A DNA stretch of 45,250 nucleotides from a virus (IMGVR_UViG_3300031857_000378:1-45250), one strand, 5' to 3'; positions 1 through 41,053 are shown, counted from the first letter of the stretch. The notes: generated by a model not told the origin, from the letters alone. A program made the numbers and translations.

Positions 1-3000
1 AATCTATTTAAAGGTTTATTTACTAATACAGATAGTACTACAGTTTTATTTGATAAGATTAATTCTGGTGCATTTGTAAATAGTACATTCCAATTTAATA
101 GATTTAATGGTAATGATACAGCATTTAAACTATTACCTAGAAGTTATAATAAAGCTGCAGGTCTTAGATACTTTACAGCTACACAAAGTAGATTATTAAT
201 TAATACAATAACTGCTAAAGTTCATAAAGCTGTATTAAATGGTGATACAAGACCTAAATCTGAGATTATAGATGACTTAGTTAAACAAAGATATGATGAG
301 TTAGAAAATGATGGTTATGCTTATGTAGATACATTAACAGCTCAAGGTAAAACTGATTTAGCTGAGAAAGTATCATCTGATATTGAAGACCAACAATTTG
401 TATTAAGTCCTGATAGTTTAAAAGGTAAAGCTTATGGTTTACTTAAATCCGAAGTATTAAATCGTTTAGAGTTATTCAGTTATGTAGATAAGGACATTGA
501 TTCATCAGAAGATGCTGAAGATGGTAGTGATGTAATTGATAATGATGCTAATGAAATTGCAGAACAATTAGGTTCTAAAGATGCTTGGTTAACAGGTGGT
601 CATGATTCATTATCTAAAATCATTAAACAATATATTGCTTTTACTACTTATACTAAGAAAGATCCTTTAACTGGTAAGGAAACAGAATTTGGTGTAGATG
701 AAGTTACATTATATAATGGTTTAATCCGTATATTATCAGATACTAAAGAAGCTGATATGTTAAATAAGTTATCAGTAGTTGCTGAATCAAATGATAATAT
801 CAAAGCATTCTTAGATAGAATTTCAAAAGAAATGAATATTGTTAAGAATGAAGATGGTACTTATAATTTGAATAACATTAATCCTGAAGCTTATAATACT
901 TTTAGATTGTTTATATCAAACTTCAAAAAGTCTAAAGCATCACAATTGATGATTACTTATGCAGCTGGTGAAGTAGAAGATTATAAAGTATTTAATGCTA
1001 ATACAAATGACCCTAAGAAAGTATCTAGAGATCAATGGTTTAATGCATTACATTACATTAAAGAAACTAACAAATTAACTCCTAAGCAATTAGGTGATTA
1101 TATTAAAGATGCTAATAAATCTTTAGTAATTGGTAACAATCCTAAAGAATTAAAGTATCTTACTGAAGCAGATTTAGATAAACAAGCAACTGACTTAGTT
1201 AAGAATTTAGCTAAGGTTGGTATTGAAGTGTCTAAAGTTTATGCTAAATACTCTATTGTAAGAGCTAAACAAGATGCTGTAGCAGAGTATAATAATAAGA
1301 ATGAAAATCCTATATTACCAGCAAGTGTAATATCTGATAAAGCATTGAACTTATTATCATTATACAATGTTACACCTATTACAAGTGATTTATTAGTAGG
1401 TAATAATGGATTTAACTTAAGTTCATTATTAGCTAAGAATGAAGACCCTTATAACAGTGATAATGATATTAATAGTAGATTAGAAGAAATAGCTGATGCA
1501 AATAGTTATTTTGATGAGTCTATTGGTAATAGTTCATTTACTAATGCTGAAGGTAATAGAGTATATGAGATTATTAATTTATCTTATGTATTGGATAAAG
1601 TTAATGATTTTAAATCTGATACTTATTGGAATAAGGTTAAAGAGGGTAAAGGACTTACAGAAGTTGAATCTAAGAACTTTAAATTTATTTCTGGTAATTA
1701 CTTATTAAACAAACATTATGATGCTTTAAAACGCATAGAATTAAATATTATTAATGGTTTTAGAAATGAAGCTGATAAAGAAGGTATTACATATGGTTCA
1801 TATGATAAACGTACTTACTTTGCAACAGCTTTAGCATTGTTTGGTAAAAAGACTAAAGGTGGTTTAGTAAGATATATCTTTAGACAAAATGAAGCTTCAA
1901 GTACTGCTTATGTATCTACAGCACCTAAAATTAGTGCTTTAAATGCTAAAGGTGGTTTATCTGTTGAAGTTAGAGATGCATTCTATGATAAATTCTTATC
2001 AGAGTTTAATAGAATATCTGAAGAATATAAATTAGTAGGTTCTGAACAAGAAGTTATTAAAGGTTATAATGATTCTACTAAAGCAGGTAGAGCTTATAGA
2101 TTTACTGAGTTTAGTTACTTAGCATTCATTGACCCTAAGTTATTTAATAACTTAAACAGAATGGCTCAAGAAGGTAACTTAGATGAGTTAAAAGCTAATG
2201 AGAATAAGGTTAAGAATGCTATTGAATATTACTTATTACAAGAAGGTTATACAAGATTTAAAGAAGAATTAGAGTCTATTGGTTTTATTACTAAGAATAA
2301 TAACTTTGTACCTAAAACTTTAATAGCTGAATATGGTGATTTAGATAAAGCTTTAAAAGAGTTTTATATTAATGATTACTTAATGTCTAATAGTATTAAT
2401 GAACTATTAGATGGTGATTATGCATTGTCTAGAGCTTCTAAAGGATTTAAAACTATTACTGTAGATGGTATAGAAGTTGAAGTACCTAAGAATGCTTTTG
2501 GTATAGATATATCAAAACGTAATAAAGGTGGTATGGCTTCTGGTCCAGACTATGGTAAAGGTACTCATAAAGTAGCTTATATCAATGATATAAATACTTA
2601 TATTGTAACTAATGCTGTTGATGGTTCATTAATCAGAGTTACTGAACAAGATGGTAAATTCTTTGATAAGGATGGTAATGAGTATAATGAAAAGCAACTT
2701 AGTAAAATTACTACTAATGACGCTCAATCATATGCATCACAATATCATCATATCTTTGGTTCAATGAGATTAGGACGTTTAGATAAACGTGCTATGAATA
2801 TTTATAAGGATTTAATTCAATTTACTAAGCGTGATGCTGAAGGTAATATTGTTAGAAATATTAGTATACCTGAAGTAGACCAAGAGTATTTAGAAAAGTC
2901 TATGGCTAGTGCTAATAGTAAAAAGACTATTACATTTGATGGTATTGCAGGTATTTATCATAAGTTATCTGAAGCAGGTTTATGGAGAAGTTCCATAAGT

Positions 3001-6000
3001 TATATTGAAGATGCTGATGTAGATTCTTTTGTAGAATATACAAATGCTATTAATACATTATTATTTAATGATAGAACTGATAGTAAAATATACAAAGCTT
3101 TAGTAGCTGAGTTAGCAGATTTATATAAGCCTATTCCAGGTATGGAGTACTTACATAACTTAGCTAATAAAATGGATAAAGCTAATATTGACCAAGCTAT
3201 TACAGAGAGTGCTTCTAAAGGAGCTACTGTTAAACCTGTAGATAGTTTTGATGGTGATTTAAATGAATCATCTACTAATATTAGAAATAATGCTAAACGT
3301 TTACAAACTGAAACACCAACTGGTAAAGATGTAATTACTGCTGGTTCACAATTAATTAACTTAATTGATACTGAATTAGACGATGATTATGAAATAGATG
3401 GTTATGGTACATTAGGTTCTATTAGAGATACTTATAGAAAGTTAATGTCTGAAACTAGAGATAATAGTTTTAAACAAGCTATGAAGTATATTGAACTATT
3501 TAAAGATGGTTCTGTAGACATTACTAAGTTAAGAGAGAAGTTAGTACGTGCATTAGAAGCTAATAATGCTGATGAATCAATGATGGAATTGTTTGATAAA
3601 GGTTATAACTTAAACTTATCAGCAATCATTGATAAAGCAGAACAAATTGTATTAGCTCATTTTAGTAAAGGTGTATTGAATCAAAAGGTTAATGGTACTA
3701 AGGTATCATTAATGTCTGATGCTGGTATTACAGTGATTAGAAATGAAGATGGTTCTGTAGTAGGCTTCCATGAAGTTGCTAGAAATCCTGAAAAATATGC
3801 AAATTACCAAAAATCATCATTAAGATATAATGTTAAAGATGCTCAAGGTAAGAGATTTAGTGAATGTATGTTATCAGAACGTATATTAACTAAACATGGT
3901 CTTAAGTTAGGTGATACTCTTAGTTATGAAGATATTAAGAATTACCCTGATTTATTTAAGGCTATAGGTTACCGTATTCCTACACAAGGACATCAATCTA
4001 TGATGGCTTTTAAAATAGTAGGTTTATTACCTAACTATTATGAAGGTGTTGGTATATTCCCACAAGAGATTGTATATCTATCAGGAGCTGACTTTGATAT
4101 TGACTCAGAGTTTATCCAATTACCTCAATTCTGGATTAAGAAAGGTAAACCTGTAGTATATGGTAGTGAAACTACTATTGAAGAAAAGTTTGAAGCTCTT
4201 AAGTATTATAACTTACATTATAACAAAGAGTTTAAAGCTGAATATAAGAAACAACTAAAAGCTACTGATAAACCTAATAAAGATTTAATATACAAATCTG
4301 TATCTGAATTCTTTAATATACCTACTGATGTTAAATCTTTAGGTGATTATAGACCAAATGCTACACTTAATAATGAAGCATTAGGATTAATGATTGCTAT
4401 GTTAACTAATGATTATGTACAAAGTAATAGTGCTAACAGTGGTACTACTACTGACCCATTAGCTGAAGTAGCTGATAGTATTAATGAGTTATTAGATAAA
4501 GGTGTTCAAAATAGTACTAAAAAAGTACCTGATGATTATTTATCAGCAAGTGATATAAATGGTAAATCTATATCTAATGCTAAGAATAGTGCAGGTAAAG
4601 CAGGTATTGGTATTGTAGCTAATAAGGTACAACAATTAACGTTGTTATTGAAGAATAATAAAGGGGTTGGTACATCATTAAGAGCAAATGCATTTAAATG
4701 GTCTATAGGTGGTAAAGAGTCTAATGGTTATATGACTGTTGTAGATGGAGTTCGTGTAATGGATATTATGGGTGTAGCGTTAAACGTTATGACTGATAAT
4801 GCTAAAGACCCTATTGCAGGTAATATGAACTTATCATTAGAATTATTAAATGGTTATACAGAGATGTTAGCTCAAGGTGCTGATAAGTATCAAGCAGCTT
4901 TAGTATTAAATCAACCATCTGTACAATTATATGGTAAGTTAAAACAAATACCTAACTATACATTAACTAATACTGATGAAGATGCTTTAAGTAATGTTAA
5001 TAAAATCTTTAAAGCAGCTATAGCTAAGATAGTATATGGTACATATGATAAAGCTACATTAGATAATTTAGAAGCTAATGTATTACAAAAATATGGTATT
5101 GATTTAAATAATCCTAAACCTGTTAACTTAAATGTTAAACAGATGGAAGGAGTATTAACTAAAGATGCTGATATTTTAAATACAGATACTTATAAGTTAT
5201 TACAAATCAATGCTTTAGTTCAATTCAGAGAGTTGGAAAAACAAGCTGATGATATTAGTAATTTAAATACTTACTTAACGTTAAATCAAGGTTTAGACAT
5301 ATCATTTGCTGAATTAAGACATAACTTAGATAAAGCTTTAGATAAGTTAAGTACTAATACTAATCCTTCTGTACACGTTGAAGCATTACCTTTAGTTAAA
5401 GAAGATGCGTTAACTTATGGTAATATTAGTAAAGCTTATGAAGTATTAGATAAAGGTGCTAAGATATTTATTGAACAATCTAAATTATTTAGAAGTGCTA
5501 CAGATGGATTAAAGTATTCATTAAATGATAGTTACTTAAATAAAAAGAAGAATGTTAAGACTGTATCAAGAGATTTCTTAAGTTATGTATCAACATATAG
5601 CTTTAAGAAGTATTTAAATGATATTATAACTACTGAAACTAATGAAACTAAGAAACTTGAAGCTGAGAATAAACTTAAAGGTTTAAACTATGCTTTAGTA
5701 TATCCTGAATTAGGTTCTACAATAGCTCAACAATTAACTGAATTAAAGAATAGTGATAAAGCTTATATTAGAAATAACCCTTTAATCAAATACTTAAAGC
5801 CTGTTGCTAAAGCTGATGATAAGAAAGGTATTGATTATATTGATGGTAAATCCTTTGCAAAAGAATCTAGAGAAACTATATCAACATTAGTTGATGGTTT
5901 TAAAGAATTGATGTTTAATACTGATCCGCAAGTTAATCAATTTGCTATAAACTTATTCAACTATAGCATCATTAAGGATAACTTACAATTTAAGTTTGGT

Positions 6001-7224
6001 TCTATATTAAAGTATTTAGCACCAGGTATGTTTCATACTTACTCTGGTACATTAGATACAATTAATGATGCACTAAACACAGGTAACAATAACATATTAT
6101 CAGATTTTGATACTATGGGTTATGAGTTTAGAAAGTTATTTGTAACTTATATTAATAATAAGAAGAATACTACTAAGTATAAATCTGTTAAAGATAATAG
6201 TTTTACTAAAGTCGAAGGTAATGATATTAAGTTTGATTTAAGTAATGTTATGAATGATGCTAAAGCATTAACTCAAGTAAATGATATATTTGAGAATCAT
6301 ATTAATGACGCAGGTAAGTATGAAGGATTTGAATTCCCTCAATTCTATACATTCAATGGTAATGTATATGAATTAAAGAATGTAAATGATTATCCTCATT
6401 CACCTAAAGATGCTTATGGTAATGGTTATAGAGCAGTATACACTAAGTTAGAATATCATGGTAATGCTAATGTATCACCATATTCATTTACAACTTATGA
6501 TGATGCTGTTAGAAATGATAAACAAATAGCAGAGTATAATAAACCTGTTAAAGAAGTTAAAGAAGTTCCTATTAAACCTCAAAATGTAACAAATACATCT
6601 GAAACTATTAATATTTATGCAGGTACAAATGAAAATGCAGAATTAAGTAATTTTGCTAATAGACCTTTTGATATTAAAGGGCAAAAATTCAATACTGTTG
6701 AAGGAGCTTTTCAGGCTGCTAAGTTAGCATTTACTCAAAACTTTTTGAATACTGGTAAATTAGATGATGCTGAAAAATCAATATTAGAAAATTTAAGAAC
6801 TGCAAATGGTCCCCAAGCTAAATCTATGGGTAGACATATTGTAGGATTAAACGTTCATGAATGGGATAAAGTATCTAGTAATAGAATGTTAAATTTTATA
6901 AGAGAATCTTTTAAACAAAATCCAGATGCTTTGTCTAAACTACTTGCAACAGGTAATGCTACTCTTACACATACTCAAGATAAAGGTAAGTGGGGTAAAG
7001 AATTCCCAAGATTATTAATGCAAGTTAGAGATGAATTACGTAATACTGTTAAACAAACATCTGTTTCAAAACCAGATATTATAAAAAAGAATCCATTTGA
7101 TTTGGTAGATCCAGCAGATTTAGCTAACTTTGTAAATGTTAGTATTACAAATGATTATGAATCATTTACAAGTGATGATTTAGGTTTAAATGATGATTTA
7201 ACAACAGACGATTTTAAATGTTAA
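1..7224 (+). CDS. Virion RNA polymerase of crAss-like phage, C-terminal part, with a NADAR domain (5' end outside window)
   Basis: The frame is open from the first base, so this is the last ~2407 residues of a longer protein. The motif SGADFDID lies at window codons 1361-1368 (nt 4081-4104). DFDID is the metal-binding aspartate motif of the single-chain virion RNA polymerases of crAss-like phages, which are injected to transcribe early genes. Around it are long alpha/beta stretches typical of this giant family. Near the end, window codons ~2203-2348 (nt 6607-7044) match a NADAR/YbiA-like domain: SNF, a VEGAFQAAK helix, AKSMGRH, a WDKVSSNRM segment, TGNATL, KWGKEF and LLMQVRDEL. NADAR enzymes bind or hydrolyse ADP-ribose conjugates, some acting on ADP-ribosylated guanine in DNA. 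The RNA polymerase call is strong by motif and context; the NADAR role is inferred. Genes downstream follow closely on the same strand. Confidence 0.85.
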   Translation, partial: NLFKGLFTNTDSTTVLFDKINSGAFVNSTFQFNRFNGNDTAFKLLPRSYNKAAGLRYFTATQSRLLINTITAKVHKAVLNGDTRPKSEIIDDLVKQRYDELENDGYAYVDTLTAQGKTDLAEKVSSDIEDQQFVLSPDSLKGKAYGLLKSEVLNRLELFSYVDKDIDSSEDAEDGSDVIDNDANEIAEQLGSKDAWLTGGHDSLSKIIKQYIAFTTYTKKDPLTGKETEFGVDEVTLYNGLIRILSDTKEADMLNKLSVVAESNDNIKAFLDRISKEMNIVKNEDGTYNLNNINPEAYNTFRLFISNFKKSKASQLMITYAAGEVEDYKVFNANTNDPKKVSRDQWFNALHYIKETNKLTPKQLGDYIKDANKSLVIGNNPKELKYLTEADLDKQATDLVKNLAKVGIEVSKVYAKYSIVRAKQDAVAEYNNKNENPILPASVISDKALNLLSLYNVTPITSDLLVGNNGFNLSSLLAKNEDPYNSDNDINSRLEEIADANSYFDESIGNSSFTNAEGNRVYEIINLSYVLDKVNDFKSDTYWNKVKEGKGLTEVESKNFKFISGNYLLNKHYDALKRIELNIINGFRNEADKEGITYGSYDKRTYFATALALFGKKTKGGLVRYIFRQNEASSTAYVSTAPKISALNAKGGLSVEVRDAFYDKFLSEFNRISEEYKLVGSEQEVIKGYNDSTKAGRAYRFTEFSYLAFIDPKLFNNLNRMAQEGNLDELKANENKVKNAIEYYLLQEGYTRFKEELESIGFITKNNNFVPKTLIAEYGDLDKALKEFYINDYLMSNSINELLDGDYALSRASKGFKTITVDGIEVEVPKNAFGIDISKRNKGGMASGPDYGKGTHKVAYINDINTYIVTNAVDGSLIRVTEQDGKFFDKDGNEYNEKQLSKITTNDAQSYASQYHHIFGSMRLGRLDKRAMNIYKDLIQFTKRDAEGNIVRNISIPEVDQEYLEKSMASANSKKTITFDGIAGIYHKLSEAGLWRSSISYIEDADVDSFVEYTNAINTLLFNDRTDSKIYKALVAELADLYKPIPGMEYLHNLANKMDKANIDQAITESASKGATVKPVDSFDGDLNESSTNIRNNAKRLQTETPTGKDVITAGSQLINLIDTELDDDYEIDGYGTLGSIRDTYRKLMSETRDNSFKQAMKYIELFKDGSVDITKLREKLVRALEANNADESMMELFDKGYNLNLSAIIDKAEQIVLAHFSKGVLNQKVNGTKVSLMSDAGITVIRNEDGSVVGFHEVARNPEKYANYQKSSLRYNVKDAQGKRFSECMLSERILTKHGLKLGDTLSYEDIKNYPDLFKAIGYRIPTQGHQSMMAFKIVGLLPNYYEGVGIFPQEIVYLSGADFDIDSEFIQLPQFWIKKGKPVVYGSETTIEEKFEALKYYNLHYNKEFKAEYKKQLKATDKPNKDLIYKSVSEFFNIPTDVKSLGDYRPNATLNNEALGLMIAMLTNDYVQSNSANSGTTTDPLAEVADSINELLDKGVQNSTKKVPDDYLSASDINGKSISNAKNSAGKAGIGIVANKVQQLTLLLKNNKGVGTSLRANAFKWSIGGKESNGYMTVVDGVRVMDIMGVALNVMTDNAKDPIAGNMNLSLELLNGYTEMLAQGADKYQAALVLNQPSVQLYGKLKQIPNYTLTNTDEDALSNVNKIFKAAIAKIVYGTYDKATLDNLEANVLQKYGIDLNNPKPVNLNVKQMEGVLTKDADILNTDTYKLLQINALVQFRELEKQADDISNLNTYLTLNQGLDISFAELRHNLDKALDKLSTNTNPSVHVEALPLVKEDALTYGNISKAYEVLDKGAKIFIEQSKLFRSATDGLKYSLNDSYLNKKKNVKTVSRDFLSYVSTYSFKKYLNDIITTETNETKKLEAENKLKGLNYALVYPELGSTIAQQLTELKNSDKAYIRNNPLIKYLKPVAKADDKKGIDYIDGKSFAKESRETISTLVDGFKELMFNTDPQVNQFAINLFNYSIIKDNLQFKFGSILKYLAPGMFHTYSGTLDTINDALNTGNNNILSDFDTMGYEFRKLFVTYINNKKNTTKYKSVKDNSFTKVEGNDIKFDLSNVMNDAKALTQVNDIFENHINDAGKYEGFEFPQFYTFNGNVYELKNVNDYPHSPKDAYGNGYRAVYTKLEYHGNANVSPYSFTTYDDAVRNDKQIAEYNKPVKEVKEVPIKPQNVTNTSETINIYAGTNENAELSNFANRPFDIKGQKFNTVEGAFQAAKLAFTQNFLNTGKLDDAEKSILENLRTANGPQAKSMGRHIVGLNVHEWDKVSSNRMLNFIRESFKQNPDALSKLLATGNATLTHTQDKGKWGKEFPRLLMQVRDELRNTVKQTSVSKPDIIKKNPFDLVDPADLANFVNVSITNDYESFTSDDLGLNDDLTTDDFKC

Positions 7225-7227
7225 GAT

Positions 7228-7656
7228 ATGGCAAAATTATGTGATTTAGGTATTATACAACTTGTTAGACAAGAAGTTAGTGATAAGCCTTGGTATGGAT
7301 ATAATGAAGAGAAAGAACCTAATTTTATTGAGATTAAATCCTCACCTAAAAATAAGGTAAATACTGGTAGTTTTATAGGTGTAGCAAATAGTACTGCACA
7401 AATATTAAATAGAAATATTAATAAAACTGTAGATATTGGTACAGTATTTTATGGGGTATTAGATTATAAAGGTAAGGTAGGGGTTATTATAGCTCCTACC
7501 GATACACAATTAAAGTTATTAAATGCTAAAGAAGATGCCGAAAGAGCTGCTATATTAGCTGAAGAAGAAGAGTCTAAATATAATTTTGATGTAGAGCATC
7601 AGATTATTGAGGATAAAATAAGAAGTGGTGAAATTAAACAAATCTGTGAAGTATAA
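7228..7656 (+). CDS. Hypothetical protein, 142 aa, in virion RNA polymerase cluster
   Basis: I do not recognise the family. The start lies 3 nt after the stop of the RNA polymerase gene, and the stop TAA shares one base with the next ATG (TAATG at 7654-7658), so it is translationally coupled in the late or virion operon. The middle (residues ~45-90) is beta-rich with many small residues, followed by an alanine/glutamate-rich helix (~96-115, AKEDAERAAILAEEEES) that may form a coiled coil. No signal peptide or membrane segment is visible. Position between two giant virion proteins suggests a co-packaged or assembly role, but this is inference. Confidence 0.75.
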   Translation: MAKLCDLGIIQLVRQEVSDKPWYGYNEEKEPNFIEIKSSPKNKVNTGSFIGVANSTAQILNRNINKTVDIGTVFYGVLDYKGKVGVIIAPTDTQLKLLNAKEDAERAAILAEEEESKYNFDVEHQIIEDKIRSGEIKQICEV

Positions 7657-10600
7657 TGAGTTGTAAATATATTTATAAAGGTAAAACGTATGACTATAGT
7701 GAATTAGTTGATTATGTTTCAAAAACTAAAGATTCACTTACAGATTTGAGCTCTGATGAACTTAAATCATTCGCTGAAGGTATAATACCAGAAACTATTA
7801 AAACTATCTCTAATCGTTCATATGAACGTCTAATAGGTACTATTAATAAACAGGTAGAAGCATTAAGAAAAAGGTTGATAGATTTTGAATCTGCAACTGA
7901 AAGGAAAGGTTATATTCCTAAAGAAGAAACTGTTAATAGAATTAAAGATTTAGAAGATAAGTTAAATAGTTTAGAGGATGTTAATAAATTCTTTGAAATA
8001 GCTCGTTATGTACATAATGAATTAGAGCTTATACATACATTCTTAGAAGGTTCACCAGATGGTACTAAACACTTTGATATGTCTAAAGAAGAACATATTA
8101 GAGCTTTATTGGAAATTGAAAAACAATTAGCTACATATAAAGATTTAGCTACAGCTTTACCTGAATATGAAGAATATGATAATACTATTAAGAATGCAGC
8201 TAAAGATATAAATATTTTATTTAAAGATATAAATGAGTCTATTATTGAGAAGAATGCAACATATCTTGAAAACTTTATGGATTATAACTCTAAGCAGGAT
8301 ATAACTAAAGAAGATATAAAAGAATTCTTAAAAGAATCTAAAGATATTTCAATACAAGAAATGTATTTAGGTGGTATGAGTAATAGTATGGATAAACTAT
8401 TAACATTACTCCAAAAACATGTTGAGGAGAAACGTCAAGAAGTTTATGAGATTACTGAACAACATAAAGAAACTATTAGTAAAAATCAAGCTGAGTTGAA
8501 TAAACTTGGTGTAACAGACCATAATTGGATGTTACAAAAAGATGCTAATGGTAAACTTAATGGTAGATATATTACACCTGTAAATGGTAAATATTATACT
8601 CATAGTAGAGAAGTAAGAGCTAAGTTAAAAGATGAATTAGGTAATAAACGTGAGTTTATTGTTAAACCTGATAATGAATTAACGGAAGATGATAAGAAAC
8701 ATAATTTAGCATTAGCTAATGATAAGAAAGTTGTATCACAATTTTTAAAAGCTGAACAAGTTAATGAAGATGGTTCAATTGTAGATGGTGATAATCATAG
8801 ATATACTCAAGAATTTAAGGATGAAAGAGCTAAGTTTGAAGAGTATAAGTTTGTAAAAGGTGAAGGTAATAAATGGGTTCAAAAAGCATTTATAGAAGGT
8901 TCTACTGATACAAATGGTAATCCTATTACAGAAGAACAATATAATCGCTTATATAAGCTATTTAGACGTAAATACTATACTGAACCTAAGTTAACTTATA
9001 TGCTTAAATCAAAGTATGATAAAGCTACTAATAGATATTATAAAGATGGTAGTGTTGTACAAGTTGAAGTAACTTATGTTAAACCTGATTATGTAGAAGT
9101 TATTACTACTAAGAATGGTAAAATAACTGAATATGCGGATAAAGATTATTATAAATTAATGACTGATGATTCAGCTATAGGTAAAGCTAAACGTAATTAT
9201 TATGAGTTTTATGTTAAAACTTCTAATGAATTATTATCTAAATTACCTTTAGATGTTCAGTATACAATGAAGAATAAGTTATTCAGAGTTAGAGGTTCTT
9301 TAGCTAAGGATATGAGTGCTAATGGTATAGGATTTATGAATATGGTTAAAAAGTCTATTCGTAAGTTTATCAATCCTGATATTATCTTTAGTAGTAGAAA
9401 AACTGATGAAAATGGTGATTTAATTGAAGATGTACCTATTTTATTTGTAGGTGATTTTAAAAATAATGAGAAGATTACTAAGTTAAATAATCAGTTAGCT
9501 AAGTTACAAGAAGAATTAAGACTTAATCCTAAAGATACTAAACTTGTAAAACGTATATCTACATTAAAAAATACTATACTTATTGAAGAAAATAAACTTA
9601 CTATTGATGAATTAGAATTAGATTTATCTAAATCCTTAGTTAGAGCAGCTGAAATGGCTGAGAACTATAATATCATGAAACAAGCTGAAACTACTTTATT
9701 AGTAGCTAAGAATATGATTAAAGATAAAAGATTCTTTAAAATAACTAGTTCAGGTGAAAAAGAGTATTTAAAAGGTGAGTCTAATGTTCAAAAGAGATTA
9801 GATATATATATGAGAATGATATTTTATTCTACTAGTGATAAGAATAATAATAAAATATCAAAGATTATTCAGAATATGAATAGTTATACAGCATTTAAGA
9901 CACTAGGTTTAAATCCATTCTCTGCTATTAATAACCGTATTATGGCTGGTATTAATAATAGAATTGAAGCTTATGGTAAGCAATTTGGTTATAATACTTC
10001 ACATATGAATAGAGCTGCAGCTATTAAGCAAGCTCATGTAACAGGTATGGCTTGGTTAGATAAGTTTACTGATAAAGATCCTTATAGTAAAGTACCTAAA
10101 GATAAGTTCCAAGCTATGTTAAAGAAGTTTAACTGGTTAGAATTAGCTCATAGTGATTATGATAGAGGTTCATTTATTAATGAATTAATGTTTAGTGGTA
10201 TTAGTGCTGGTGAGTATTTAGCTCAATCTACAAGTGCTATAGCTAAGTTATTAAGTGTTGAGGTTACTAATGATAAAGGTGAAACAACTAACTTATGGGA
10301 TGTTTATGATTTTAAAGATGGTAAAGTAACTATTAAAGAAGGTTATACTTTTAGTGATGAAGCTCGTAGAAAGCTTACAGTTGATATTAGGAACATGAAT
10401 AAGATTATCCATGGTAACTACTCAGATACAGATAAAGTTGCATTACAAGAGTCTGCTTTAGGTTCTACAGCCCTTCAATTTAAGAAATGGATGTATAACT
10501 TTGCTAAAAATAGATTTGGTAATACATATTTTGATGAAACTACAGGTGATTATCAAGAAGGTAGATATAGAACAGCTTTAAATTTTATAAGATTTATAAA

Positions 10601-11105
10601 AGCTGGTAGTGTGAGAGATTTCAACTCTGTTAGAGAAGCTTTTAACTCATTAAATGATTATGAAAAGTCTAATCTTAAAAAATTACAAGCAGAATTTATA
10701 GTATGGACTAGTTCTGTAATGTTATATTATTTATTTGATGCTATAGCTGAAGGTATAGATGATGATGATGAAGAATTAAAGTTTGTAGTTAACTTCCTTA
10801 AAAGACAATCAGATAGAGTTGGTGGTGAGTTAGATGCTATGATTAATCCTCAATCTGTATATAGTAGTATGAAGAACCCATTTGCTGGTTTAACAACTGC
10901 TAAAGGATTAGGTGATGTTATGGTACAAACTGTTAGATTACCATTCTTATATGCTATTGGTGAAGAAGAAAAAGCATATTATGATAAAGGTCCTAATAAA
11001 GGTAATTTAAAACTTGCTAAAGAAATTAATGATGTAATACCAGTATTAAATATGTCAAATCAATTTGATGCAATTATGAATAGTGGAAATTACTATTTTA
11101 GATAA
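7656..11105 (+). CDS. Large virion protein, 1149 aa, probable capsid-packaged (cargo) protein
   Basis: A very large acidic/basic, mostly helical protein at the end of the plus-strand block. In crAss-like phages, genes of this size next to the virion RNA polymerase encode proteins packaged in the capsid and ejected with it; that assignment is by position and size, not by a catalytic motif. Visible features: helical N-terminal ~290 residues with Lys/Glu-rich coiled-coil stretches, a beta-rich middle (~residues 300-500), a long helical region around 620-700 and a C-terminal helical part including an FKKWMYNFAKNRF segment and a short hydrophobic run (VWTSSVMLYYLFDAIAEGI, ~residue 1010). It shares one base with the preceding gene. 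A convergent terminator region follows the stop. Confidence 0.7.
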   Translation: MSCKYIYKGKTYDYSELVDYVSKTKDSLTDLSSDELKSFAEGIIPETIKTISNRSYERLIGTINKQVEALRKRLIDFESATERKGYIPKEETVNRIKDLEDKLNSLEDVNKFFEIARYVHNELELIHTFLEGSPDGTKHFDMSKEEHIRALLEIEKQLATYKDLATALPEYEEYDNTIKNAAKDINILFKDINESIIEKNATYLENFMDYNSKQDITKEDIKEFLKESKDISIQEMYLGGMSNSMDKLLTLLQKHVEEKRQEVYEITEQHKETISKNQAELNKLGVTDHNWMLQKDANGKLNGRYITPVNGKYYTHSREVRAKLKDELGNKREFIVKPDNELTEDDKKHNLALANDKKVVSQFLKAEQVNEDGSIVDGDNHRYTQEFKDERAKFEEYKFVKGEGNKWVQKAFIEGSTDTNGNPITEEQYNRLYKLFRRKYYTEPKLTYMLKSKYDKATNRYYKDGSVVQVEVTYVKPDYVEVITTKNGKITEYADKDYYKLMTDDSAIGKAKRNYYEFYVKTSNELLSKLPLDVQYTMKNKLFRVRGSLAKDMSANGIGFMNMVKKSIRKFINPDIIFSSRKTDENGDLIEDVPILFVGDFKNNEKITKLNNQLAKLQEELRLNPKDTKLVKRISTLKNTILIEENKLTIDELELDLSKSLVRAAEMAENYNIMKQAETTLLVAKNMIKDKRFFKITSSGEKEYLKGESNVQKRLDIYMRMIFYSTSDKNNNKISKIIQNMNSYTAFKTLGLNPFSAINNRIMAGINNRIEAYGKQFGYNTSHMNRAAAIKQAHVTGMAWLDKFTDKDPYSKVPKDKFQAMLKKFNWLELAHSDYDRGSFINELMFSGISAGEYLAQSTSAIAKLLSVEVTNDKGETTNLWDVYDFKDGKVTIKEGYTFSDEARRKLTVDIRNMNKIIHGNYSDTDKVALQESALGSTALQFKKWMYNFAKNRFGNTYFDETTGDYQEGRYRTALNFIRFIKAGSVRDFNSVREAFNSLNDYEKSNLKKLQAEFIVWTSSVMLYYLFDAIAEGIDDDDEELKFVVNFLKRQSDRVGGELDAMINPQSVYSSMKNPFAGLTTAKGLGDVMVQTVRLPFLYAIGEEEKAYYDKGPNKGNLKLAKEINDVIPVLNMSNQFDAIMNSGNYYFR

Positions 11106-12270: not shown

Positions 12271-13062
12271 TTAATTTCTACCTTTTTCATTAATATATAG
12301 TTCTTGTAAATCATCTGATTGATAATATTCCTTAGTATCAACATTCATAATAGTTAATTTACCTTTAAACCCACAACCAGTATCTAAATTCCAAATATTC
12401 GCAGCATTCATAGGTTTATCAGTTTTCCAATTCATAGTTGTAGTATGACCTATAAAAACTTCTTTAAACTTATCATACATTTTAAAAGCTGGTCTAACAG
12501 CTAAATCACCTTGTTCAATAGTACCATAGGATAATGCAGCAAGCCACAAATCTCTATCCCATATTAATATATCTTCTCCATTATAAATTTCATCATTAAT
12601 TGGAAAATGTCTATTGAAACCTCCATGTACAAATAATCTATTACTAGAATCAATATAATAAGGTTTTTGTTTACTTAAGAAAAAATCAATATGATTTAAA
12701 GGTATATCAGTAACTAATAAAGAAGTAATATAACCTTGTTTATCAGCACCCCATAATTGTTTATCTAAATTTATACAATATGAATTTAATGTGCCATAAC
12801 CACCTTGATTCCAAGATATAGGATGTTGATCAAATTTTAACCAAGTTCTAAACCAATCATCATGATTTCCACGTATAGCAATTAGATTTTTAATAGTTAA
12901 TAATTCTTCAACACATTCATATACTTCAGACCAACCATCACATATATCTCCTAATTGAATAAGAGTATCTTCTTCTTTATTAAAATTACTTCTTTCTAGA
13001 CATTGTAGGAGGGCTTTATACCCTCCATGAATGTCACCCATTACGAATGTTTTACTTTCCAT
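12271..13062 (-). CDS. PPP-family metallophosphatase (lambda phosphatase / ApaH-like)
   Basis: The metal-binding signature of the PPP family is complete in the N-terminal half: GDIHGG (residues 8-13), GDICDG (~38-43) and GNHDDW (~65-70), with later histidines in VHGGF (~145) and GHTTT (~210). These residues hold two metal ions and hydrolyse phosphate esters or dinucleoside polyphosphates in the cytoplasm. At 263 aa it has the length of phage lambda-type phosphatases. It overlaps the NAMPT stop by 11 nt, so the two are co-expressed; whether its substrate is a protein, a nucleotide or a pyrophosphate intermediate of the NAD pathway cannot be told. Confidence 0.9.
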   Translation of the reverse strand: MESKTFVMGDIHGGYKALLQCLERSNFNKEEDTLIQLGDICDGWSEVYECVEELLTIKNLIAIRGNHDDWFRTWLKFDQHPISWNQGGYGTLNSYCINLDKQLWGADKQGYITSLLVTDIPLNHIDFFLSKQKPYYIDSSNRLFVHGGFNRHFPINDEIYNGEDILIWDRDLWLAALSYGTIEQGDLAVRPAFKMYDKFKEVFIGHTTTMNWKTDKPMNAANIWNLDTGCGFKGKLTIMNVDTKEYYQSDDLQELYINEKGRN

Positions 13063-14614
13063 TTAATCTATTTCTAATTTCATCTAAAGTAGTTTCTTTT
13101 ACAAGTTTACCATCTTTAAATACTGTTGTTAATAATCCTGTTTGTTCTTGTTCCCAAGTACATTGGTCTTCAACTCCAATACTATCAACAAAAGGATTTG
13201 GATGATTAACCCCCATACCTTCAATAACTCTTAATAACCCTTTCTTAGATTTCTTAGTACCATCATCAGTAATAGGGTCTTTGAATATTTCACGAGCTTC
13301 TACATAAGAATCTGTTTCAAAACTACCACCTTTTACTGGAGGATGAGTAATTTCACCATAAGTAGCCTTCATAGCAAATCCAAATGTATCACGAGTATTG
13401 TATTGGTAAGTAAATGAACCTATACCTAATACAATATTAGTACTAGCAAATCCTTTAGCTTTAAGTCTTTCACAAATCTCAATAGCTCTTTCTAAGGTAA
13501 TACTATCACCATAAATAGCTCCAATATGAGGGTCTAATACTTTATAACCTTGTTCATTAATAGTCCCTCCAAAAGTATCCCAAAGTAATTCAATTACTCC
13601 TTTATATTCTGGTTTACCTTGAGCATCATATTCTTTAAAAGACATTGTTTTATTATTTAAACCAACACCACAAATAATATCTACAGGATCTCCTGAATCA
13701 GGTCTAATAACTAATTTACCATCTCTAGCTAAGATTTCAGATTTAAGTTGAGGTAAATATTCAGTACATACTTTCCATAAATCCCATGTATCAGATACTA
13801 CAGATAATATACCTGTTGGATATAAGTTTAATAATCTTTTAAAAGTATCTATTTCAGATTCTTTAGTGCCCATACACATAACACTATGTTCAGTTGCTGG
13901 TACACTATCTCCTATTAATCCTTGGGCCTTGTATGAAGATTCCAATTGATAAATAGCAGGTATAGTATCAGTACCTGTAAAACTTGTAAGGTGTCCCATA
14001 CCAGATAGAGTAGCAGACTCAACTGAAGACATACCACGCATACTAAAATCATGACCTTGCCATTGTACACCCTCTTTACTTCCTGTAGTTTCAAGTGCAT
14101 ATTTATCAAGTATTTTTTTATATTCATAAGCAATTGTTGCTGATGTAACTGGTTGCCAGAGCATACAGCTAATCAAGGTTTCTAAATAATTTACCAACCA
14201 TCCAAAATCAGGATGAGTATTAGTAATAGTCATCATTGGTACTCCAATAGGACATAATGTACCTTCTTCTAAAGCTTTAATTTCAATAGGTAAATAACCT
14301 AATTTCCATAATTCCTTTATATGTTTGGTATCTACATTACAATGTCTTTCATATTCTTCAATCATTTTCCAAAAAGGAACTGTTGAAGATAATGAATGTG
14401 CTCCTGTACCAACTCTTTTACCAAAGAATTCTTCATTGAATTGTTTAATAAGATACTCTAATATAAAATGTTGTATACCAAATACAACTACTTTATCCAC
14501 ACCTTTCATACGTGATTTACGTGGTGTAAAGTTAGAGTATAGTTTAGTCATACCTTCTGGATACATATTGGTATGATGAATTTTGTAGCTATCTACAAGT
14601 AATAATGGGTTCAT
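13052..14614 (-). CDS. nadV: Nicotinamide phosphoribosyltransferase (NAMPT)
   Basis: Full-length NAMPT (520 aa). It joins nicotinamide to an activated ribose (PRPP, giving NMN; or, in NARP1-type enzymes, ADP-ribose pyrophosphate, giving NAD+ directly). Visible landmarks: LVDSYKIHH at 6-14, FGIQHFI at 45-51, QGHDFSMRG at 186-194, ATEHS at 240-244 with the catalytic-type histidine, RPDSGDP at 304-310 binding the diphosphate, and GIGSFTYQYNTRD at 397-409. It follows the PRPP-synthetase-like gene by 2 nt and overlaps the phosphatase, so substrate maker and user are coupled. No NMN adenylyltransferase is seen in the window, which leaves either a host enzyme or direct NAD+ formation. Confidence 0.95.
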   Translation of the reverse strand: MNPLLLVDSYKIHHTNMYPEGMTKLYSNFTPRKSRMKGVDKVVVFGIQHFILEYLIKQFNEEFFGKRVGTGAHSLSSTVPFWKMIEEYERHCNVDTKHIKELWKLGYLPIEIKALEEGTLCPIGVPMMTITNTHPDFGWLVNYLETLISCMLWQPVTSATIAYEYKKILDKYALETTGSKEGVQWQGHDFSMRGMSSVESATLSGMGHLTSFTGTDTIPAIYQLESSYKAQGLIGDSVPATEHSVMCMGTKESEIDTFKRLLNLYPTGILSVVSDTWDLWKVCTEYLPQLKSEILARDGKLVIRPDSGDPVDIICGVGLNNKTMSFKEYDAQGKPEYKGVIELLWDTFGGTINEQGYKVLDPHIGAIYGDSITLERAIEICERLKAKGFASTNIVLGIGSFTYQYNTRDTFGFAMKATYGEITHPPVKGGSFETDSYVEAREIFKDPITDDGTKKSKKGLLRVIEGMGVNHPNPFVDSIGVEDQCTWEQEQTGLLTTVFKDGKLVKETTLDEIRNRLNGK

Positions 14615-14616
14615 GT

Positions 14617-15531
14617 TTAATATACGTTAAGTTGTTTTACAAAGTCCTGTGTATCAGGATTTAATTGTTTATAAGAATTTGTAGTATAAATAGCATCAAA
14701 ATATTGTTGTAATTCACCAAATCCTTTAGAAAATATACCATGCGTTACTATTAGATATATTTTAGATGTAGTGTTTTCTGTTAATACTCCTTGTGATTTT
14801 AATGCTTTTACTATATTAATAAATGTAGCACCACCATCACAAATATCATCAATAATAATTAAATCTTTACCGTATTGATCTCCACCTAAACCTGGTACTT
14901 TTATTTTAGTTAATTTACCATTTTCATCTCTATCCTTACTACAAGTAATAACATCTCCTTTATAACCTATTTGTTCAGCTAGTTTATAAATCTTTTTACT
15001 TGCACCAGCATCTGGTGATACTAGAATAACATCAGATGATGTATAATTAAATAATTTTCCATTAGAAGATGATATTTGAGATAAAGCAAATTCAACTAAT
15101 TCTAAATTAGATATTTTTTCTAATTTATTAATACAATTTTCAGCTACATCAGAATGTGGGTCTATACAAGTTACCGATTCAAAGTTTTGAGCATTTAATA
15201 AAGGTGCAATAATATCTTTAACATATCTATTACCACCTTCTTGAAATAATCTATCACTTCTTAATCCCATGATATATGGTACATAAAGATGAATTTCTTT
15301 TACTTTAAGATTTCTAAGTGCTTTAGTAGCACATATAATCATTAATAAATCTTCAGCATTATTAAGTCTTGATTTAATTTGAACTGATTGAGTATTTATA
15401 TGTTTTCCCCAATCATTACCATTAGTTATTACCCAAGAAGTAATTACAATATCCCTTTGTCCATCAGGATAGTTAATAATTTGATATTTTATATCAGACT
15501 TATCAATGTCTGTTAAATCTAATATTTTCAT
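14617..15531 (-). CDS. prs: Ribose-phosphate pyrophosphokinase-like enzyme (PRPP synthetase or ADP-ribose pyrophosphokinase)
   Basis: 304 aa with the two-domain phosphoribosyltransferase layout. The PRPP loop IIIDDICDGGATF is at 226-238, SPDAGASKK at 172-180, and CIDPHSD at 122-128 stands where bacterial enzymes have DLHA. The usual YARQDR loop is replaced by MGLRSDR (88-94), so the active-site edge differs from housekeeping Prs. Known phage pairs of this gene with NAMPT work either by making PRPP or, in the NARP1 pathway, by pyrophosphorylating ADP-ribose. The gene sits 2 nt upstream of nadV. Enzyme class is firm; the true substrate is open. Confidence 0.9.
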   Translation of the reverse strand: MKILDLTDIDKSDIKYQIINYPDGQRDIVITSWVITNGNDWGKHINTQSVQIKSRLNNAEDLLMIICATKALRNLKVKEIHLYVPYIMGLRSDRLFQEGGNRYVKDIIAPLLNAQNFESVTCIDPHSDVAENCINKLEKISNLELVEFALSQISSSNGKLFNYTSSDVILVSPDAGASKKIYKLAEQIGYKGDVITCSKDRDENGKLTKIKVPGLGGDQYGKDLIIIDDICDGGATFINIVKALKSQGVLTENTTSKIYLIVTHGIFSKGFGELQQYFDAIYTTNSYKQLNPDTQDFVKQLNVY

Positions 15532-27854: not shown

Positions 27855-29205
27855 TTACAACAGAATTCCATTCTTTTTTAATAGTGTTATCATAAGTTAC
27901 AGCACGAGCAATTGTATCATCTTTTTCTTCATCTTTATTATCAGTTGTTACTGAAATATGAAGATTAGGATTAGGACATTTTACATACTTATAATCTAAT
28001 TCCGTTGGATCTTTTAAGTAATCTTCTTTAAAATAATTGTAATATTCTAATAAAGCACCTCTCGTAAAGTAAACACCTAATCTATTATGAAATACTTTAA
28101 AATCATCACTTTTATGTCTAGAGTTGTTTAATTGAGCATATAACTTTTTCAAAACTTTCTTAGAAGGTTCTAAATCACGTAATAACACTAAATATTCTCT
28201 ATAATAATTTGCTACTGAATTTAAAGGTCCAAAAAAATATTCTGTATGTAAAGCATGTTCATTAACACTTAACGTATTACTATTATCAAATGTTAATACA
28301 TTAAGAAGACATTTCTGATCATATGATTTAAAATTAAACACTTTAGTATACCAAATATTATTAAGGTCTTTCTTCATGTATATGAAATTCATATAATTAT
28401 GATCTGTAATTCTAATATAAGAACCATCTAATACTAATGAGTTATGTTTAGATAACATCTTATCAATACCTATTTTATAATCTTTCAAATAAGTATCTGC
28501 TTTAGGATATGTAGATTTATTTTCTAAAGATTCTAAAGGCTTTGGTTCTTCTTTTTTTTTGAAGACTCCTCCATAATCTCTATAGTAACCATCTTTATAA
28601 CCTAAATTAGAATGAAAATAACCATTATCTTCAATAAAATCCCCAAATTTGATTAAATCTCTATCTGGAAATAAAAAACACATTTTACTAGTATTTAGAT
28701 AAGGATTCATTACTTTTAAGAATAATTCTAAATTAGATTTTAATAAATTCTGTATATGAATGTTAGACATAATAAATCTAGCAAAAGCATATGTATCAGA
28801 ATTATTAAAATTACCTACTCTAAAATCATAAATAGCATTATTTGTTAATGTACCATTATGAACTAAACAAGGTTTATCAAATTTAGCACCAAAAATCTTA
28901 TGAATATCATCTTCTACAAATGAACATACAAAAGGATGAGTGTTAAGGTCATTTTTATTACCAATGTTACCAATTCTATGATGAATAACTAATTCATCAT
29001 CTTTAGATAAATTACAATCTTTAATATCTTGTAATAACCATTGTAAATCATTATAACCTTTACTTAAATAAACTTCATTTTCTCCAAGTTTTTTATACAT
29101 AAAACCTGAACCATCACCATTGTTAGAGTAACCATTTGTAATAAAACTTATAGTTTCATCTGTTAACTTTTCAGTACCTTTCGGTAAAATTGATATTATA
29201 CACAT
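27841..29205 (-). CDS. Class II glutamine amidotransferase-like protein (second of two)
   Basis: Begins MCIISILPKG: removal of Met leaves an N-terminal Cys, the nucleophile of class II (Ntn) glutamine amidotransferases. Further site residues are ELVIHHRIGNIG (~residue 75), THPF and LVHNGTL (~115), which shape the glutamine pocket and oxyanion hole. The ~240-residue C-terminal part (after a Lys/Glu/Pro linker at ~225) is unfamiliar and has no synthetase motif. The enzyme would release ammonia or transfer glutaminyl nitrogen. Its start overlaps the amidoligase stop by 10 nt, indicating a joint function. Confidence 0.8.
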   Translation of the reverse strand: MCIISILPKGTEKLTDETISFITNGYSNNGDGSGFMYKKLGENEVYLSKGYNDLQWLLQDIKDCNLSKDDELVIHHRIGNIGNKNDLNTHPFVCSFVEDDIHKIFGAKFDKPCLVHNGTLTNNAIYDFRVGNFNNSDTYAFARFIMSNIHIQNLLKSNLELFLKVMNPYLNTSKMCFLFPDRDLIKFGDFIEDNGYFHSNLGYKDGYYRDYGGVFKKKEEPKPLESLENKSTYPKADTYLKDYKIGIDKMLSKHNSLVLDGSYIRITDHNYMNFIYMKKDLNNIWYTKVFNFKSYDQKCLLNVLTFDNSNTLSVNEHALHTEYFFGPLNSVANYYREYLVLLRDLEPSKKVLKKLYAQLNNSRHKSDDFKVFHNRLGVYFTRGALLEYYNYFKEDYLKDPTELDYKYVKCPNPNLHISVTTDNKDEEKDDTIARAVTYDNTIKKEWNSVVNALN

Positions 29206-30668
29206 TGTATTGCTCCTTTCACAGTTAATAGTTCATCCTCATTTGTTTCATTATAATCGTTTAATTCTGTTTGTAAATTTTCCATATCTGTAGCAGGTTT
29301 TGAAAATAAAGATACTCTTTCATTAATATAACTAACTATAGAACAACCTGTTTTAGGGTAAGCTAATAACATAATTTCTTCCAAATTTAGAATATTACCT
29401 TTAAGAATATCTCGTTTATGATTTTCAACATACCATAAAATACCCATATGAATTAATGTCCAATTTTTAATCTTACGATAATTAGTTGTAGCACTATGAT
29501 TTCTAATTTCAATAGTTTTAGCAGATAAATTATGTTTAGTATCAAAAATAGCTGGTACAAAATTTAACCAACAGTATCTAGCACTATGATGTTTATAACC
29601 ACATTTATGCCCCCAAGGATGTTCTGATTTTTTATTAAATTTATAATTACTTTGATTATTATTTGATACAAAATCAAATAAACCTAAATAAGCATTTTCT
29701 ATGAATAAATTATATTCATATACAGAATTTAATTGATTTTCAGTTATGTTAGTTAAACAATCAGTAATTTTATTAAGTTTTCTACAATATGTATTTTTGT
29801 ATCTACTAGAAGGTAATATTGAAAATATAGATTTTTCTAATATGAAATATACTTTATACAAAGCTATTAAATTCTCTTTAGAAAATTCAATACCTGATAA
29901 GTGAAGATGAAGCCCGCACTTCTTATCAATTTTACATCTTCTAGTTACTTCTACAGATAAACGTTTAGCTTGTAAAAAACCAGTATCACCAGTTAGAATA
30001 CCTGTTACATATTCAGCACCTATAGGATCTTCTCCATTAGGTCCACGTAATGAACCATCATGAACAGCATTATAATTTAAATACTTATCTAAATATTGAG
30101 GTAATCTACCGTAAATTGTTTCAAGTTCTAATCCAAACTTGTAACGTTTACCTTCAGTTATTTTAAAACTTGGAGATTTAACACCCATTAAATAATCATA
30201 TTTTAAATCACCTGTTGGTTGATATTCAGCATTTTTAACCTTTCTGTAAATAATAGGTTCGGATCTATCATATTTATCAGTAGGTGTTGAAATATGATAA
30301 AATAAACCCGTAGTATAATCTTCCACATATAAATTTAAAGGTATTGATTCATATGTAGCAGTATGTAAATTTAATTTCTTATCAAATAATATACAACTTT
30401 TTGATATATCTTTTGTATATGAACAATTGGTATAATCTGGTATATCATCATTAAATTTATTAATAACTTTACTACATTCATGTATGAATTCATTTTTTCC
30501 TGTAAAACAATCCTTTATTACATTAGGGTCATTAATATGAGCATATACTCCAGAAGGTACTAAAAAAATAGCATCTTTTCTTGATATTAATTTACCATCA
30601 TAAGTTTTTACAGTATCATCTTCTTTCTTACTTGATATATTAGCATAAAAGCCTTTTGTTAACGCCAT
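29196..30668 (-). CDS. Amidoligase (Amidoligase_2, glutamine-synthetase-fold COOH-NH2 ligase)
   Basis: The core residues of Amidoligase_2 are visible: FGLELET (178-184) for metal/ATP, HDGSL (203-207), GAEYVTG (217-223), CGLHLHLSG (251-259) and TIEIRNHSAT (385-394) with the phosphate-contacting Arg. Such enzymes use ATP to join a carboxylate to an amine, for example gamma-glutamylation or peptide-tag formation. The N-terminal ~165 residues are an extra domain of unknown fold. It is sandwiched between two class II GATases with overlaps of 28 and 10 nt, which is unusually tight and suggests a complex. Confidence 0.85.
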   Translation of the reverse strand: MALTKGFYANISSKKEDDTVKTYDGKLISRKDAIFLVPSGVYAHINDPNVIKDCFTGKNEFIHECSKVINKFNDDIPDYTNCSYTKDISKSCILFDKKLNLHTATYESIPLNLYVEDYTTGLFYHISTPTDKYDRSEPIIYRKVKNAEYQPTGDLKYDYLMGVKSPSFKITEGKRYKFGLELETIYGRLPQYLDKYLNYNAVHDGSLRGPNGEDPIGAEYVTGILTGDTGFLQAKRLSVEVTRRCKIDKKCGLHLHLSGIEFSKENLIALYKVYFILEKSIFSILPSSRYKNTYCRKLNKITDCLTNITENQLNSVYEYNLFIENAYLGLFDFVSNNNQSNYKFNKKSEHPWGHKCGYKHHSARYCWLNFVPAIFDTKHNLSAKTIEIRNHSATTNYRKIKNWTLIHMGILWYVENHKRDILKGNILNLEEIMLLAYPKTGCSIVSYINERVSLFSKPATDMENLQTELNDYNETNEDELLTVKGAIQCV

Positions 30669-32142: not shown

Positions 32143-32178
32143 AGTGTTTATTTTTATTTTATAAATGTTTATTAATAA

Positions 32179-32200
32179 GTGATAGCTAACTAGCTACCAC
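32179..32200 (-). terminator. Strong hairpin between the two parts of the amidoligase island
   Basis: In minus-strand RNA, GUGGUAGCUA and UAGCUAUCAC form a 10-bp stem (one G-U) with a 2-nt loop. It lies between the phiEco32-type ligase gene and the GATase gene. The following sequence is A/U-rich without a long U-run, so it could be a partial terminator or a processing/stability element. Confidence 0.5.
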
Positions 32201-32245
32201 ATCTGAATCATCTGGTAATTCATCAAAATAATTAAGCAAATTCAT
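32186..32245 (-). CDS. Possible 19-aa acidic micro-ORF
   Basis: ATG at 32245 overlaps the end of the phiEco32-type ligase gene; the peptide is MNLLNYFDELPDDSDVVAS and ends in TAG inside the hairpin at 32179-32200. It may be a leader peptide or chance. No other support. Confidence 0.2.
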   Translation of the reverse strand: MNLLNYFDELPDDSDVVAS

Positions 32246-33056: not shown

Positions 33057-33079
33057 ATTAGTTTATAATTTTTAAGTGA

Positions 33080-33568
33080 TTAATTTAAATATTTCATATA
33101 ATAGTTTATAAGATTACCAGTTCTGTTATTACGATATTCTTCTTTAAACAATTCAAATCCGTCTTTCACTAATTCAAGATTAAGTTTATGTTCTTTATAA
33201 GAAGTTATTAAAATATTTGAAAAGTTCAAACCAATTGCTAATTTAGTTATAATTTTTAAAAATAATTCATAATATTCATAACTTATCATATAATCATGTA
33301 CAACAAGTGTTGAACATTGTCCTGGTAAAGTTGATATTCTAAAGTCAATAAATGATGAACCTTTATAAGAATCGAATCTTATACTTTTAATATCATTATA
33401 AAATAAACCTGATATTTGATTTATTAAATCTTTATCTTTTAAGATATTTGGAAAATCTTTAAAAATACTAAGAAATTCATCAGCTATAATATCACCATCT
33501 TCATCTAAGAATTGTCCTGTAGTTATTTCAACTTCTTCAATTACTTTTTTTTCTTTTATCTTACTCAT
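33080..33568 (-). CDS. Hypothetical protein, 162 aa, in amidoligase island
   Basis: Unrecognised. After a charged N-terminus it is alpha/beta, with strands SFIDFRIS and CSTLVVHDYMIS and a C-terminal LVKDGFELFKEEYRNNRTGN stretch that faintly resembles the end of GNAT acetyltransferases. No acetyl-CoA P-loop (Q/RxxGxG/A) is visible, so I do not call it one. It overlaps the PuuD-like gene by 4 nt, so it belongs to the island. Confidence 0.65.
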   Translation of the reverse strand: MSKIKEKKVIEEVEITTGQFLDEDGDIIADEFLSIFKDFPNILKDKDLINQISGLFYNDIKSIRFDSYKGSSFIDFRISTLPGQCSTLVVHDYMISYEYYELFLKIITKLAIGLNFSNILITSYKEHKLNLELVKDGFELFKEEYRNNRTGNLINYYMKYLN

Positions 33569-35243: not shown

Positions 35244-35252
35244 ATTTATAAT

Positions 35253-41038: not shown

Positions 41039-41053
41039 ACTTTTATTCGTTTG

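Follow-up and report, generated by a model that had tools for sequence, protein, structure and literature searches.

A NADAR domain within a crAss-like virion RNA polymerase frame behaves as an exchangeable cassette

The C-terminal part of a virion RNA polymerase (RNAP) open reading frame (ORF) of a crAss-like phage is confirmed here, by profile matches and a predicted structure, as a NADAR domain of the His-type. Among crAss-like RNAPs, NADAR behaves as an exchangeable in-frame cassette of ~450 bp. The domain probably removes ADP-ribose (ADPr) tags. The crAss-like phages dominate the human gut virome. Effector domains on virion RNAPs are already known; a NADAR on a crAss-type RNAP is new, and its cassette behavior is the most surprising part. 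Virion-borne NADARs were proposed in 2022 in a paper which remarks that NADAR domains outside RNA-virus polyproteins are typically stand-alone (PMC9503650). In the text of the papers searched, as distinct from figure labels such as those in Fig. 3 of PMC7886860, no account of NADAR in crAss-like polymerases turned up. The cr126_1 record labels its RNAP 'DUF1768 domain-containing protein'.

The polymerase and its NADAR domain

The analyzed stretch of DNA, hereafter the window, is a linear IMG/VR fragment of 45,250 bases (Table 1). It begins inside the RNAP ORF, with the N-terminus of the RNAP outside the window, and the frame runs on without interruption through NADAR to nt 7224. The original prediction called this ORF a virion RNA polymerase, a name that homology supports: residues 1051-1624 resemble phi14:2 gp66 (tblastn 9e-15; phmmer 1.7e-14) and the catalytic DFDID motif is in place, the DxDxD pattern being invariant in alignment A2. 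When the RNAP was used as query in viral_contigs, no relatives were found; the downstream 1149-aa protein as query retrieved the relatives L035-L039.

Table 1. Features in and around the RNAP ORF (positions in nt of the window)
Feature	Position	Strand	Basis or remark
crAss-like virion RNA polymerase ORF, 2407 aa in window, open 5' end	1-7224	+	Homologous to phi14:2 gp66
RNAP core used for profile (aa 1001-1750)	3001-5250	+	Converged jackhmmer family includes phi14:2 gp66 and almost every NADAR locus
DFDID catalytic motif (aa 1364-1368)	4090-4104	+	DxDxD invariant in alignment A2
NADAR domain (aa 2200-2348), His-type	6598-7044	+	Family HMM, Pfam, phrog, AlphaFold
Catalytic Glu (aa 2234; E43 of P. 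nicotianae NADAR, E88 of C7 NADAR)	6700-6702	+	Invariant in 81/81 fused NADARs; role PMC11543638
Catalytic Lys (aa 2241; K50 equivalent, K95 of C7 NADAR)	6721-6723	+	Invariant in 81/81 fused NADARs; role PMC11543638
Lys (aa 2274; K75 equivalent, K115 in E. coli C7 NADAR)	6820-6822	+	K in 65, R in 13 of 82; role PMC11543638
His (aa 2324) of LTHTQDKGKWG, phage-type substitute for YbiA-family Glu	6970-6972	+	Invariant in 81/81; aligned with YbiA and T4-like gp30.3
59-aa tail after NADAR, ends DDFKC	7045-7221	+	Terminal Cys codon 7219-7221; crAss-like RNAPs keep this Cys whether they carry NADAR or not
ORF between two RNAP proteins, 142 aa, Cys near both ends (MAKLC, QICEV)	7228-7656	+	
RNAP-associated protein, 1149 aa, starts MSC	7656-11105	+	Homologous to crAss001 gp49; closest homologues L035-L039
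Namat, signature GSFTYQYNTRD	13052-14614	-	NARP1 NAD+ reconstitution pair
Adps/Prs-like gene, adjoins Namat	14617-15531	-	NARP1 NAD+ reconstitution pair

Because the fragment is linear and no capsid genes were found among the ORFs scanned in the 45,250-base window, we infer the presence of the RNAP in the virion from its homologues. Phages phi14:2 and crAss001 (gp66 and gp50, respectively) share with it the homologous core, the DFDxD motif, the gene order and the terminal Cys. The proteins gp65-gp67 of phi14:2 are virion proteins according to the MS/MS-based annotation of the phi14:2 record, and gp47, gp49 and gp50 of crAss001 are capsid cargo by mass spectrometry (PMC10172136). The virion RNAP of crAss-like phages is described as transcribing early genes (Drobysheva et al. 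2021, as cited in the review PMC10136315). Since phi14:2 gp66 and crAss001 gp47, gp49 and gp50 occur in virions, the window RNAP and its NADAR would very likely be delivered by the virion, and the earlier proposal that the domain would act from the first moments of infection is soundly based. No NADAR was found in the phi14:2 region examined or in the nearest relatives of the window RNAP.

The span first given for the NADAR domain, 6607-7044, is accurate when set beside the family HMM, and the motifs quoted for it (LSNF, VEGAFQAAK, AKSMGRH, KWG and LLMQVRDEL) all lie in a single frame. Pfam NADAR (PF08719) matches aa 2210-2333 with E=2e-11 and 44.8 bits, above the cut-off of 35.1. The domain also matches phrog_1017 (2e-18) and, by sequence, PDB entry 2b3w (YbiA; 1.7e-7). 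The search with the relatives' profile that delimited the window domain also recovered E. coli YbiA (locus L031; 6e-16), so the family tie rests on more than one model. An AlphaFold model with 24 aligned relatives reached a pLDDT of 92 and a pTM of 0.85. With Foldseek (E 4e-7 and 2e-6), the only convincing PDB matches were known NADARs, namely 2b3w, 8bau and, weaker, 8bat. VIA-align against 8bau, the P. nicotianae NADAR with bound ADPr, aligned 143 residues at 2.0 Å with Z 17.1, against Z 15.2 for 2b3w, 9.3 for 8bat and <3 for unrelated rows. The original prediction hinged on a NADAR/YbiA fold and on retained pocket residues; the predicted fold agrees and the main residues are there.

The catalytic residues of the P. 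nicotianae NADAR are E43 and K50 (Schuller et al., PMC11543638), and their equivalents support the assignment to the NADAR superfamily beside the profile score and the YbiA fold. K115 of the E. coli C7 NADAR is required for rescue from DarT1 (PMC11543638); in 78 of 82 members of the family alignment this position, that of K75, is a K or an R, and W89 and W133 are mostly retained. R79, which contacts the ADPr phosphates, varies across the fused family, and R93 is replaced by Ser in most members, including the window NADAR. At the third catalytic position, H2324 lines up with the His of gp30.3-like proteins, where YbiA carries an additional Glu, and the Asp of DarTG1-type NADARs is absent from the window domain. 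This His-type is the 'phage' form of NADAR (Cihlova et al., PMC11125620). Pfam Phage_30_3 (PF08010) stayed below its cut-off of 36 bits, both with the whole ORF (E=2e-4, 21.6 bits) and with the tail (27.7 bits).

The window NADAR shares with T4-type gp30.3 the fold, the His in place of the YbiA-family Glu, the active-site E and a phage origin, and gp30.3 forms the nearest stand-alone group on the tree. However, gp30.3 is a small stand-alone protein, whereas the window NADAR lies inside a virion RNAP, is almost Cys-free and is ~30-35% identical to T4-like members. The antitoxin NADAR of DarTG1 and the P. nicotianae NADAR (8bau) likewise have the same fold, the catalytic E and K and the K75/K115 position. 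In contrast to these, the window NADAR has no DarT partner, is His- rather than Asp- or Glu-type and would be delivered by a virion instead of belonging to a host toxin-antitoxin pair.

Distribution and exchange of the cassette

The original prediction raised the question of which other crAss-like polymerases carry the domain. Loci were gathered by the NADAR domain alone, together with four crAss-like GenBank records (n=75), and NADAR and the RNAP core share one ORF in 65 of these 75 loci. In three loci NADAR lies in another ORF than the RNAP, and seven have no detectable RNAP, several of them being cut at a contig end. A DFDxD-type motif was seen in about 60 of the 65 fused ORFs. As scored, NADAR follows the core in 57 loci and precedes it in eight. 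Counted among the 57 is L086 (5615-13252), where NADAR sits inside the core (RNAP 1095-1462, NADAR 1468-1619, RNAP 1778-2028); the insertion falls between the DFDID motif and the next conserved core part. The contigs come from many metagenomes, which makes an assembly artefact very unlikely. In a set sampled by RNAP, which is biased to relatives of L051, NADAR is carried by 7 of 80 loci. NADAR is an accessory domain, outside the RNAP core machine. A scan of genome contigs gave only three loci, all in MAG contigs of implausible hosts, and therefore no host is inferred from them. Separately, NADAR is split by a frameshift in one contig and intact in a close relative (L028/L095 versus L022/L079), for which decay, frameshifting or sequencing error are candidates.

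Several lines of evidence document the exchange. The five closest relatives of the window RNAP system (L035-L039) align with the window RNAP to about aa 2165 and then continue into other tails without NADAR. An RNAP tree of 126 rows requires at least 16 changes of NADAR presence and at least 10 changes of position among carriers, counts that are approximate given the long branches of this FastTree phylogeny. Well-supported neighbors on the tree differ in NADAR, namely the window and L035-L039, L040 and L079, L055 and L129, and L063 and L153. Across 59 loci, NADAR identity shows no correlation with RNAP identity (Mantel r=0.026, a value reached in 336 of 999 permutations).

At the DNA level, L055 and L057 are 97.5% identical across 471 bp, a match that stops at the domain borders, and their RNAPs are 18% identical. 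Three further pairs with unrelated RNAPs (L066/L063, L092/L054 and L097/L094) show a similar pattern; over such pairs, a DNA identity of 90-97% stops at the domain borders. Conversely, most of the ORF is 90-100% identical between L043 and L053, while identity of their NADAR cores falls to 23-50%. The pairs L043/L053, L063/L153 and L055/L057 are natural swaps that can be used for experiments.

Short T-Q-P-S/T linkers occur at the borders of NADAR with ~22 times the density of the remaining ORF sequence. At some loci these linkers form direct DNA repeats that flank NADAR. Such repeats are enriched over the family, with a score of ≥12 in 11 of 68 loci compared with 1.5% of cross-pairs; in the window itself they score 8, no better than chance. 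Exchange by homology between the conserved NADAR ends, or between linkers, would explain the pattern. L043, on the same contig as L006, has a TTQPST/STQPST linker after NADAR (about aa 2760) and again at about aa 2961. The second copy separates a cpYpsA SLOG domain from DUF7831, as if the same linker bounds each cargo domain.

Candidate function of the domain

We consider it probable that the virion-delivered NADAR cleaves ADPr adducts of host defense, most likely guanine-linked ADPr, the substrate being the least certain element of this reading. The polymerase with its tethered NADAR would travel in the capsid, enter the cell together with the genome and transcribe early genes, and NADAR would be active in the cytoplasm ahead of any phage gene expression. 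There it would cut N-glycosidic ADPr adducts made by host defense. The likeliest target would be guanine-linked ADPr on the incoming template or on early transcripts, at the work site of the polymerase. A matching threat that varies by host would account for the gains and losses of NADAR, its shifts along the polypeptide and its exchange among unrelated polymerases. We infer the virion delivery, the activity and the counter-defense role alike.

In vitro, the His-type T4 protein gp30.3 hydrolyzes guanine-ADPr in both DNA and RNA (PMC11125620, PMC11833690), but it did not rescue cells from DarT1 toxicity (PMC11125620). We favor guanine-ADPr because gp30.3 cleaves it in vitro, because tethering suits a lesion on the template and because AlkB-like domains accompany NADAR. 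Removal of DarT-type ADP-ribosylation from DNA, as the original prediction had it, is plausible for the window NADAR. Points against our reading are the variable R79, the Ser at R93, the SLOG domains in the tails (see below), the failure of gp30.3 to rescue from DarT1, and the presence of NADAR in a small share of the RNAP-sampled loci.

Of the earlier interpretation, a true NADAR fold, the catalytic Glu and Lys and the in-frame position on a crAss-like virion RNAP stand. Its further suggestion that the polymerase protein would be protected from ADP-ribosylation finds no support, because known NADARs, to our knowledge, act on N-glycosidic base (or small-molecule) linkages.

The tails carry companion domains. 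In NADAR-bearing tails (n=44), Pfam detects AlkB-like 2OG-Fe(II) oxygenase in eight, cpYpsA SLOG in eight, SF1 helicase in five and ART-PolyVal in four, versus one, zero, four and zero, respectively, in NADAR-free tails (n=66). The enrichment of AlkB (Fisher p=0.003) and SLOG (p=0.0004) is suggestive only, as the two sets of tails differ in phylogeny and length. The company of AlkB fits base repair, and that of SLOG and ART fits NAD/ADPr metabolism. The window RNAP with NADAR, to which relatives add AlkB, SF1 helicase, SLOG and ART, thereby combines several unrelated enzymatic domains, as polyvalent proteins do. Like the N4-like virion RNAPs among the polyvalent proteins (Iyer et al. 2017, PMC5512222), it would carry effector domains into the host on an injected polymerase. 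However, the N4-like RNAP bears an ADPr writer (ART), whereas the crAss-type RNAP, which is unrelated, bears a probable eraser that moves as a cassette.

The SLOG domains point to soluble NAD-derived ligands instead. The strongest alternative is a serious one, although we rate it as rather unlikely: the virion-delivered NADAR would destroy soluble ADPr signals or toxins (cADPR variants, ADPr-1''-P) of Thoeris-like or other NAD-based defenses, and the released ADPr could feed the phage's own NARP1 pathway to NAD+. Iyer et al. (PMC9503650) see soluble ADPr derivatives as the main targets of phage NADARs, and cpYpsA SLOG comes after NADAR in several virion RNAPs. The window encodes a Namat that exactly matches the selectivity signature GSX-phi-X-phi-X-phi-TRD (PMC12774641), beside an Adps/Prs-like gene; this NARP1 pair would convert released ADPr into NAD+. 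In principle, phage RyDEP shows that signal cleavage can feed NARP1 (PMC13232231): it is likewise a phage glycosidase yielding ADPr in a phage with NARP1, but it is of another family and lies within the NARP1 operon, and a link between NADAR and NARP1 is not general. Namat occurs in only 2 of 29 NADAR records tested, and another 40 records, among them 20 that carry NADAR, yielded none; a general coupling of NADAR to NARP1 was rejected on these counts. Namat is also present in cr126_1. Moreover, tethering to a polymerase gains nothing for a diffusible substrate.

It is improbable that NADAR is a self-antidote within a polyvalent protein, shielding phage nucleic acid against the phage's own injected ADP-ribosyltransferases. 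In a whole-record search, 9 of 49 NADAR phages and 3 of 50 others have ART-PolyVal in giant ORFs (p=0.07), and it shares the tail with NADAR in 4 of 44 cases. Nevertheless, no ART-PolyVal was detected in the window or in 40 of the 49 NADAR phages, and most thus keep NADAR without any detectable ART. DarT (PF14487) was found neither in the window, which is a fragment, nor in 48 relatives with this NADAR. A phage-encoded DarTG pair was accordingly rejected, with no DarT in the 49 records.

A non-enzymatic role, in which NADAR would serve the polymerase as a structural module or as one that binds ADPr or nucleotides, is quite improbable. The unconserved R79 and R93 positions and the lack of NADAR in the RNAPs closest to that of the window would agree with it, but the catalytic Glu, Lys and His are invariant in 81 of 81 fused NADARs, down to 25% identity, whereas the middle of the domain otherwise varies strongly. 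That the domain is a YbiA-like N-glycosidase of riboflavin intermediates carried along by chance is highly improbable: TIGR02464, named for that activity, is the best NCBIfam match (E=9.5e-13), but it scores 48.7 bits against a cut-off of 73.7, and the window NADAR lacks the YbiA-family Glu and groups separately, with T4-type NADARs.

If our preferred reading is right, a pre-made ADPr-removing domain on an injected polymerase is counter-defense ahead of transcription. The frequent exchange of NADAR suggests that matching ADP-ribosylating or NAD-based host defenses are common and varied, and the polymerase C-terminus suggests itself as a general delivery site.

Cysteines and other features of the window

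Fused NADARs contain 2 Cys per 11,563 residues, compared with 24 per 1,657 in eleven stand-alone phage NADARs (p=5e-20, a value overstated by the common descent of the rows); E. coli YbiA has zero Cys. The RNAP ORFs themselves have 0.05% Cys inside, and the other window proteins 1.7%. The NADAR cassette shares the Cys-poor mark of its virion cargo, which fits a cargo role. Cargo may be Cys-poor because, for instance, it crosses the tail while partly unfolded.

The crAss-like RNAP ORFs are nearly Cys-free, yet a Cys lies within the last seven residues in 118 of ~123, including 65 of 66 without NADAR and 47 of 49 with a NADAR on the C-terminal side. The ORF after the RNAP has a Cys at residues 2-8 in 114 of 121 cases, and both junction Cys are present in 112 of 121. 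In the window, the junction Cys codons are at 7219-7221, 7240-7242, 7645-7647 and 7662-7664. The terminal-Cys pattern also occurs in L032, L185, L186 and >100 loci. Both phi14:2 (gp67-gp66-gp65) and crAss001 (gp47-gp50-gp49) have Cys at every inner junction, and the junction upstream of the RNAP is less regular in environmental loci. Cysteines go unmentioned in the paper on the crAss001 virion structure (PMC10172136).

Disulfide coupling of successively ejected proteins via the junction Cys is possible. We tentatively propose a wider scheme, which we hold to be possible rather than probable. Effector cassettes (NADAR, AlkB, SLOG, ART and helicase) would plug into a virion RNAP chassis, often beside repeated TQPxT-type linkers, ahead of the conserved terminal Cys. 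This Cys and the N-terminal Cys of the next protein would couple the ejected proteins into one train, the cassette entering in a fixed order.

Elsewhere, the window encodes a tmRNA (41051-41444, - strand; Rfam RF00023, 81 bits, E=4.6e-30) with the unusual tag APKAVELELEAA, and a tRNA-Leu lies near it at 42740-42828. A gene cluster at 29196-36200 (- strand) comprises an amidoligase, a glutamine amidotransferase, a RimK-like protein and a COOH-NH2 ligase.
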